A DNA stretch of 34,087 bases, from contig MGNS01000083.1 in NCBI GenBank assembly GCA_001795165.1, positions 1 to 34,087 of the forward strand, in the 5' to 3' direction. This DNA comes from Chloroflexi bacterium RBG_16_57_11. GTDB lineage: Bacteria; Chloroflexota; Anaerolineae; Anaerolineales; UBA4823. Positions 19,845 to 21,886 of the stretch are shown here, piece by piece. Below the pieces are notes generated by a model that was not told the origin of the DNA, searched no databases, and saw nothing but the letters and a program-made list of their open reading frames with translations. Position numbers and translations under genes: made by a program. Position 1 is the stretch's first letter. Every line of letters starts with the position of its first letter.

Positions 19845-19873
19845 TTGACAAATGCAACCCCTAATATTAAACT
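19845..19873 (+). promoter_or_regulatory. Promoter of the metG leader: TTGACA, 17 nt spacer, TAAACT
   Basis: TTGACA 19845-19850; TAAACT 19868-19873. Confidence 0.55.
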
Positions 19874-19912
19874 AGCGTTAAGTTATTAAGTTATAAAGAA
19901 AGGTCCGCGACA

Positions 19913-20017
19913 ATGGCGCCGGTTGACTCTCGCTATGATACTATTCGCTATTCAATGGCCATGATGTGCAATCTGGTCGATTACCTCGCGCCTGAGTACG
20001 GGCAGCCGGTTTTTTAA
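19913..20017 (+). CDS. Putative 34-aa Met-rich leader peptide MAPVDSRYDTIRYSMAMMCNLVDYLAPEYGQPVF upstream of metG
   Basis: GAAAGG RBS before ATG 19913; ATG codons at 19955, 19961 and 19964; complete ORF between promoter and hairpin; not in the supplied track. Confidence 0.65.
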   Translation: MAPVDSRYDTIRYSMAMMCNLVDYLAPEYGQPVF

Positions 20018-20047
20018 GGATAGAAAAATTCTAATTGCGAATATCCG

Positions 20048-20073
20048 AGGGCTGTCCTGGAGAGGGCAGCCCT
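20048..20073 (+). promoter_or_regulatory. Attenuator-like hairpin between the leader ORF and metG
   Basis: AGGGCTGTCC-tggaga-GGGCAGCCCT (10 bp, one G·U) followed by TTTAAC; GGGCAGCC also occurs at 20000-20007. Confidence 0.65.
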
Positions 20074-20104
20074 TTAACTGTGCATAACCATCTGGAGGTC
20101 TCCT

Positions 20105-21886
20105 ATGTCCGAGTATATTCTTGTATCTGTGGCCTGGCCTTACGCGAACTCGCAAATCCATGTTGGCAATCTAACCGGCTCTTATTTGCCGGCGGATATC
20201 TTTGCGCGCTACCACCGGCTGGCAGGGGACCAGGTGGCTATGGTTTCTGGCTCCGACGGACATGGCACGCCGGTGACGGTGCGGGCTGACGCTGAAAGCA
20301 CAACCCCGTTGAAAGTCTACCAACACTACCATACTACCTTCATCGAGTTGTATCAGAAGCTGGGTTTGACTTACGACCTCTTTACCAGCACGCACACAGA
20401 GAACCATTTCGAGGTCTCGCAAAATATCTTTCTGGCGCTGCAGGCAAACAATTTCCTCTATACCGAACGTCAGAAACAATGGTACGCGCCTACTCAGGGG
20501 CGCTTCCTGCCCGATCGCTATGTTGAAGGCACCTGCTATATTTGCGGCTACCCCAACGCCCGCGGCGACCAGTGTGATGGCTGTGGCAGCCTGCTGGATG
20601 CCACCCAGCTCATCGACCCACGCTCCAAGATCGACGGCTCGACCCCTGAGCTCCGCGAGACCGAGCATTTTTATCTGGATCTGGGCGCCCTGGAGCCAGC
20701 CATTATCGAGTTCCTGCGCCAGCGCGAAGGTTATTTCCGCCCGAATGTGTTGCGCCAATCCCTGGGTCAAATCCAATCCGACGGTTTGCGCGGCCGGCCG
20801 ATCACGCGTGATCTGGATTGGGGCATCCCGGTGCCGGTAGAAGGCTGGGGTGGCAAGTGCCTGTATGTGTGGTTCGAAGCGGTCATCGGTTACCTGTCGG
20901 CCTCAATCGAGCTGGCCAGGCTGCGAGGCAAGCCGGACGATTGGCACTACTGGTGGTATAACCCCGCTGCCCGTGGCTATTACTTCATCGGCAAGGATAA
21001 CATCCCCTTCCACGCCGTTAACTGGCCAGGCCAGTTGATCGGCGCGGGAGAGGCCTTCGGCCGGCTGTTGGAAGGCTCTGAAGGCAAACGCTTGACCTTA
21101 CCCTATGACATACCAGCGAACGAGTTTATGAACCTGGAAGGCAAGAAAATCTCCGGCAGCCGAAATTGGGCCGTTTGGGGCCTCGATTTCCTTGAGCGCT
21201 ATGACCCCGATTCGTTGCGCTACTACCTGACTGCCAATATGCCCGAGGCCAAAGATACGGATTGGGATTGGGATGATTTTGTTCGTCGTAACAACGATGA
21301 GTTGGTCGCCACCTGGGGCAACCTGGCAAACCGGGTGCTGTCTTTTGCTTATAAGCATTGGGATGGCCGCGTCCCTGAGCCAGGCGAGCTGCGCCCCGAA
21401 GACCAGGAGATTATCGCAACTGTGGAAGCGGGCTTCCAGAGTGTTGGCCAGCACCTGGAGGCGGTGCGCTTGCGCGCCGCCTTGGGCGAAGCGCTCCGTC
21501 TGGCGGCGGAGGTCAATAAATATCTGGATAAGGCTGCGCCCTGGTTCGAGATCAAGAGTGACAAAGCCGCAGCTGCCAAGTCGATCTACGCCGCGCTGCG
21601 CGCCATCGACTCGCTGAAGGTTCTGCTCGCCCCGTTCATCCCCTTCTCCAGCGAGCGACTGCACGGTTACCTGGGCTACTCGGAGCCGCTGTTTGGCAGC
21701 CAATACACCGAAACCGTCCAGGACGGCCTCGGCGAGCACACGGTGCTGCGCTACCGCCCTGGCCCGGCGGGGGTTCATTGGCAGCCCAGCCAGCTGGCCA
21801 CCGGAAAGGCGCTCCACCAGCCGGGGCCGTTGTTTCGCAAGCTGGAGCCGAGCGTCGCCGCGGAAGAGCGCGCCCGGCTGGGCTGA
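20105..21886 (+). CDS. metG: Methionine--tRNA ligase
   Basis: VSVAWPYANSQIHVGNL (HIGH-region variant), zinc knuckle CYICGYPNARGDQCDGCG, GKKISGSRNWAVWG (KMSKS variant), TGGAGG RBS. Confidence 0.95.
   Translation: MSEYILVSVAWPYANSQIHVGNLTGSYLPADIFARYHRLAGDQVAMVSGSDGHGTPVTVRADAESTTPLKVYQHYHTTFIELYQKLGLTYDLFTSTHTENHFEVSQNIFLALQANNFLYTERQKQWYAPTQGRFLPDRYVEGTCYICGYPNARGDQCDGCGSLLDATQLIDPRSKIDGSTPELRETEHFYLDLGALEPAIIEFLRQREGYFRPNVLRQSLGQIQSDGLRGRPITRDLDWGIPVPVEGWGGKCLYVWFEAVIGYLSASIELARLRGKPDDWHYWWYNPAARGYYFIGKDNIPFHAVNWPGQLIGAGEAFGRLLEGSEGKRLTLPYDIPANEFMNLEGKKISGSRNWAVWGLDFLERYDPDSLRYYLTANMPEAKDTDWDWDDFVRRNNDELVATWGNLANRVLSFAYKHWDGRVPEPGELRPEDQEIIATVEAGFQSVGQHLEAVRLRAALGEALRLAAEVNKYLDKAAPWFEIKSDKAAAAKSIYAALRAIDSLKVLLAPFIPFSSERLHGYLGYSEPLFGSQYTETVQDGLGEHTVLRYRPGPAGVHWQPSQLATGKALHQPGPLFRKLEPSVAAEERARLG

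Follow-up and report, generated by a model that had tools for sequence, protein, structure and literature searches.

The metG leader in the window

The DNA analyzed here (the window) is a 34,087-nt stretch of the genome of the Chloroflexota bacterium RBG_16_57_11. At 20105–21886 its forward strand carries a gene for a 593-aa methionyl-tRNA synthetase, as judged by a match to TIGR00398 (470 bits; cut-off 336) and a further match to PF09334; this gene, metG, is the proposed regulated gene. Upstream of it, on the same strand, a promoter-like sequence of the form TTGACA-N17-TAAACT (19845–19873; TTGACA at 19845–19850 and TAAACT at 19868–19873, separated by a 17-nt spacer) precedes a putative Shine–Dalgarno-like AGAAAGG (19897–19903, from sequence reading) and a leader ORF of 34 aa, MAPVDSRYDTIRYSMAMMCNLVDYLAPEYGQPVF*, at 19913–20017, with its TAA stop at 20015–20017. 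ORFs in the relatives share its homologous position and its Met richness. Within the ORF lies ATG-GCC-ATG-ATG (19955–19966; ATG at 19955, 19961, and 19964), whose Met codons are putatively regulatory, a reading that draws on the Met enrichment in relatives.

Three short arms follow, also on the forward strand. Arm A, GGGCAGCC (20000–20007), the predicted 5' arm of an antiterminator, is located within the final leader codons and begins 36 nt beyond the first nucleotide of the last Met codon. Arm B, AGGGCTGTCC (20048–20057), is the 5' arm of a predicted terminator and is complementary both to arm C, GGGCAGCCCT (20064–20073), the 3' arm of that terminator, and, over 20050–20057, to arm A. A weak run of U, TTTAACTG, comes after arm C, and the metG Shine–Dalgarno GGAGG (20094–20098, again from sequence reading) stands 21 nt downstream of the hairpin end. 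The promoter, the site resembling a ribosome-binding site, the 34-codon ORF, the Met codons, and the three arms had all been described in an earlier note on this DNA, and each lies where that note placed it.

Taken alone, the window provides weak evidence for regulation. The fold of the whole leader has z = −1.03, the complementarity of A and B gives p = 0.06 and 0.09 in two tests, and the leader contains one promoter-like site against 0.6 expected. The U-tract is poor, with just four T per eight-base windows 3' of the stem. Across relatives, by comparison, the predicted attenuator anatomy is far above chance.

Conservation of the leader among relatives

How much of this leader recurs in other Chloroflexota? 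Searches for metG yielded the gene in 59 of 61 genomes of near relatives, in 107 of 121 at class level, and in 73 of 121 at phylum level; nearly all of these genomes are apparently metagenome-assembled. The DNA upstream of the genes gave 160 distinct metG leaders. Terminators were called at a relaxed setting; a stricter version of the caller misses the window's own hairpin. A blastn search with the window leader DNA against 41 relatives returned no homologous leader (the sequences are not alignable), and a tblastn search with the leader peptide against 38 family genomes returned no credible homologue. Because DNA and peptide are both too diverged for BLAST, the features that the leaders have in common reflect constraint rather than recent descent.

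The recurrent anatomy consists of a promoter, a short ORF with two to eight internal Met codons, an arm A situated inside that ORF or shortly 3' of it, a hairpin with a U-tract, and metG. TTGACA-N17-TANACT, or a close variant, is found 5' of the upstream ORF (uORF) in nearly all family leaders. The same anatomy appears in a second genome collection (Anaerolineae/Anaerolineales MAGs, e.g., DeMMO6_43), which shares several contigs with the first set and is therefore only partly independent. An ORF with at least three internal Met codons plus a terminator is present in 24 of 31 family leaders, 17 of 29 order leaders, and 7 of 65 class leaders; it is present in 0 of 35 leaders from other classes, which serve as an empirical negative control for this combination.

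The Met-rich uORF is absent from a few family members (L013, L021, and L025) and from many members of the order and class. The element is likewise absent from Leptolinea and from most Anaerolineaceae-labelled records (L297–L308), in which the uORF is decayed or missing. L021 and L025 still carry the hairpin with the family word, and L025 also retains arm A. The distribution in L013, L021, L025, and L297–L308 suggests repeated loss of the Met-rich uORF. The earlier note had proposed examining related leaders for the ORF, the Met codons, and covarying arms; all of these are kept in the family, in most of the order, and in part of the class, the one branch of the Chloroflexota that the predicted metG attenuator spans.

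Is methionine singled out among the residues of these peptides? For uORFs ending 12–70 nt 5' of a U-tract hairpin, we took the largest number of each residue in the last 35 codons and used dinucleotide-preserving shuffles as the null. By this count the 54 leaders from the family and the order contain 213 Met, compared with 26 in the shuffles (z = 32; like the other z-scores given here, this value takes leaders as independent and ignores phylogeny). The next-enriched residues are Ala (z = 7.1) and Arg (z = 6.9). The Met signal is z = 6.6 in 30 class leaders and z = 2.7 in 17 phylum leaders. Many metG leaders also contain a CGCGCC/CGCGTC-like stretch ~10 nt 5' of arm A (CGCGCC at 19987–19992 in the window); positioned between the Met cluster and arm A and often read as Arg-Ala codons, it contributes to the Ala/Arg enrichment (z ~7).

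The codons themselves tell the same story by frame: ATG is distributed 237:11:8 across the three frames inside the uORFs (in-frame first), a bias that is partly built in because the frame was picked by its Met content, but only partly, since ATG-rich DNA would fill the other frames too. GTG, TTG, CTG, ATA, and ATC have no comparable frame bias. Judged by these counts, Met is the sole strongly selected residue of the uORFs.

Arms A and B form conserved islands on either side of a variable spacer of 40–50 nt. Leaders of the main type have GGGCAGCC, GGACAGCC, CTGGATAGC, or a similar sequence as arm A, which pairs with the terminator word GGCTGTCC, the window being of the type GGGCAGCC/GGCTGTCC; in the antiterminator register 95% of cells pair, versus 25–45% in slid registers. 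More distant leaders have other terminators, with a correspondingly different arm A, in the pairs GTCGGATGGC/GCTGTCCGAC (L008 and L037), GCGAGGCT/AGCCTCGC (L084, with L061 near it), AGCCGAGGCT/AGCCTCGGCT (L315), GGGCAGAC/GTCTGTCC (L128), TGCGAGAC/GTCTCGCA (L127), and GCCCGGG/CCCGGGC (L040). Over 66 leaders, arm A pairs better with its own terminator than with permuted ones (z = 6.5; 0 of 20,000 permutations reach the score), although terminator types partly track clades, so that the independent changes may number six or seven, not 66. The co-variation signal arises from comparing terminator types with each other. Inside the GGCTGTCC type there is one compensatory pair, and 225 of 500 shuffles score equally high; few such changes are seen within the family because its arm B is nearly invariant.

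What do geometry and folding predict? In main-type leaders with a good arm, the median distances are 21 nt from the last Met codon to A, 26 nt from the stop to the hairpin, and 46 nt from A to the hairpin. With a ribosome placed as a mask at the last Met codon, every listed leader of the GGCTGTCC type has a modeled P(A:B) of at least 0.9, the window reaching 0.90; a mask at the stop lets the terminator form, with a probability of 0.83 for the window. In ribosome-free folding P(A:B) varies among leaders (median 0.48; the window has 0.26). A:B pairing is not predicted by the simple fold model for several leaders of the AGCCTCG type. The anatomy, the selection of Met codons, and the mutually exclusive, co-varying pairing are computational observations.

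A protector (1:2) hairpin is a feature of the E. coli trp type. In the metG leaders, the Met region and arm A show no excess of pairing with each other (t = 1.2, n = 47). A survey of Actinobacteria describes its attenuators as complementary triples, a description that does not include a protector hairpin (Seliverstov et al. 2005, PMC1262725).

A predicted Met-responsive attenuator and its alternatives

How would such a leader control metG? We consider it highly probable that the leader acts as a transcription attenuator, ribosome-mediated and responsive to Met, through which metG expression is tied to how far Met-tRNA is charged. The earlier note had put forward this mechanism, and it gains support from the Met enrichment (z = 32), the ATG frame distribution (237:11:8), the co-variation of arm A, and the conservation of the promoter. 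RNA polymerase would start from the promoter at 19845–19873 and a ribosome would enter the 34-codon leader. When charged Met-tRNA is scarce, the ribosome would stall at the Met codons (19955–19966), leaving arm A (20000–20007) free downstream to pair with newly made B (20050–20057); A:B pairing would block the B:C terminator (20048–20073), and metG would be transcribed. When Met-tRNA is charged, the ribosome would instead cross arm A to the stop at 20015, and with A occupied, B would pair with C and transcription would end before metG. Leader translation, ribosome stalling, termination, and the response to Met are what we infer from the sequence comparisons. In many leaders arm A ends ~18 nt 5' of the stop, so that a ribosome paused there would mask just part of the arm, and its timing with respect to RNA polymerase presumably has to contribute.

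Could the hairpin act on metG translation instead, by sequestering or spacing its ribosome-binding site, with the Met leader still the sensor? The earlier note had allowed for this, and the weak U-tract of the window (TTTAACTG) is in keeping with it. In relatives, however, 5–8 T lie directly 3' of the hairpin, and the window's own hairpin stops 21 nt short of the GGAGG, with which it does not pair. The distance from hairpin to metG ranges from ~25 to 370 nt among relatives, a variability that fits termination and not sequestration of the Shine–Dalgarno. With these data, action on translation is not favored and appears improbable.

Somewhat less probable again is an arrest peptide, in which the nascent chain would sense free methionine or SAM, as in TnaC or SpeFL, and codons would not be counted. 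The closest relatives do have “YSMAMM” in common (L008, L011, L031, and L037), and an Arg-Ala motif 3' of the Met cluster is kept in many leaders. Beyond Met, however, the peptides are not conserved—in line with the tblastn search of 38 family genomes that found no credible homologue—and the Met codons differ freely in number and spacing, whereas their frame and their distance to arm A are maintained.

We reject, as very unlikely indeed, the idea that the ORF is there by chance and the hairpin is just the usual terminator of the sigma-factor gene upstream, neither having a regulatory connection to metG: terminators built from the GGCTGTCC word do exist elsewhere in these genomes and the window alone is not significant, but the comparative data contradict this idea (Met z = 32, ATG 237:11:8, and 0 of 20,000 permutations for arm co-variation), the promoter sits between the sigma gene and the hairpin, and the uORF is kept where no upstream sigma match is found (e.g., L010, L011, and L040).

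Sensors at synthetase genes of the lineage

Which other sensors do these genomes carry? At metG, the window and 60 class and phylum upstream stretches have no Rfam match at E ≤ 0.01, and specifically neither a T-box (RF00230) nor a SAM riboswitch (RF00162). The same genomes each contain several T-boxes, including those at thrS, pheS, and trpS and others assigned by position to ileS, leuS, and valS, and 24 of 25 genomes have SAM riboswitches elsewhere (e.g., G000 C15:46137–46250). With T-boxes at other synthetase genes and none at metG, the metG sensor differs from those of its synthetase neighbors. Hairpins with the word GGCTGTCC-N-GGRCAGCC occur at other sites of these genomes as well; in a scan of the single terminator word GGCTGTCC, a Met-rich uORF with a proper terminator was found just at metG, and no wider Met-uORF regulon emerged.

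The window has a T-box of its own at 249–487, before thrS (422–2380). Its specifier looks like ACC (Thr), and its score of 80.4 bits is below the gathering score of 93, so that a default scan misses it.

A candidate Tyr-codon attenuator precedes tyrS, a gene with no T-box match in the loci scanned. In 22 relatives with a terminator 5' of tyrS, the last 12 codons before the stop contain 53 Tyr codons where shuffles have 7.1 (z = 18), and every other residue stays within z 3.1. The order of elements is a run of Tyr codons near the stop, an arm such as CTCTGCGG, and then a CGCGCCCTC..GAGGGCGCG terminator (L342, which is G000 C35, and L343–L370); the arm pairs with the terminator at z = 11.5 against shuffles, and 4 of 5,000 permutations do as well. 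In most genomes the Tyr codons form the 3' end of the upstream gene (in G000, of a 169-aa protein ending in GEGYYYARE), and in others (L360 and L365) they lie in a free short ORF of 19–28 codons. As a separate case of the same design, with Tyr codons at a Tyr gene, the tyrS leader adds weight to the mechanism put forward for metG.

For an attenuator, methionine is a difficult signal, because the initiator tRNA is charged by MetRS too. A tentative and fairly doubtful extension of the attenuator model is that scarcity of charged Met-tRNA would block both initiation and elongation on the leader; since a protector hairpin seems not to be kept, both failures would leave arm A free and lead to read-through. 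The extension would also have the lineage divide the control of its synthetases between T-boxes (Thr, Ile, Leu, Val, Phe, and Trp) and codon-reading attenuators (Met and Tyr), the Tyr attenuator often being placed in the 3' end of the preceding gene. As ribosome-free P(A:B) is not uniform, a default-on state is kept here just as a possible case.

How does the metG leader compare with known systems? Textbook leader-peptide attenuators use Trp, His, Phe, Leu, Ile/Val, and Thr codons, whereas T-boxes, SAM riboswitches, or protein repressors are the regulators to which control by methionine is generally ascribed. The metG leader resembles the trp, his, leu, thr, ilv, and pheST leaders (Rfam RF00513, RF00514, RF00512, and RF00506) in having a promoter, a short ORF rich in cognate codons, three mutually complementary arms, an intrinsic terminator, and a cognate gene. 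It differs from them in its Met codons at metG, its occurrence in Chloroflexota, and the lack of a detected conserved protector hairpin, and it shows no sequence similarity to them and no Rfam match. T-boxes (RF00230), which the same genomes have at thrS, ileS, leuS, valS, pheS, and trpS, are likewise sensors of tRNA charging, but they read uncharged tRNA directly without an ORF, and none was found at metG. Chloroflexi T-boxes are listed by T-box surveys (PMC2494555, PMC3766115).

Closer precedents are attenuators at synthetase genes. Those predicted for trpS and leuS of Streptomyces (Seliverstov et al. 2005, PMC1262725) are likewise classical attenuators before an aminoacyl-tRNA synthetase gene, but for Trp and Leu and in Actinobacteria; the genomes of that survey showed no conserved RNA structures 5' of their methionine operons. 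Premature terminators were the subject of another survey, which gives leader peptides as known in Proteobacteria and Actinobacteria, added hisS/hisZ of bacilli, and mentions neither metG nor Chloroflexi (Naville and Gautheret 2010, PMC2965389). In the hisS/hisZ case, too, a synthetase gene of an otherwise T-box-using lineage has a leader peptide, and sensors are exchanged at syntenic genes (PMC2965389); it concerns His in Firmicutes, whereas the present cases concern Met and Tyr in Anaerolineae.

We found no description of a Met-codon leader or a metG attenuator in full-text searches of largely open-access literature. Ribosome-mediated attenuation is a known kind of control; the amino acid (Met) and the lineage (Chloroflexota) appear to be new. 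The predicted metG system raises the question of what a ribosome-based sensor does if initiation, too, becomes limiting. It would extend leader-peptide attenuation to the Chloroflexota, beside T-boxes in one genome, and this coexistence bears on the lineage's choice of sensor.
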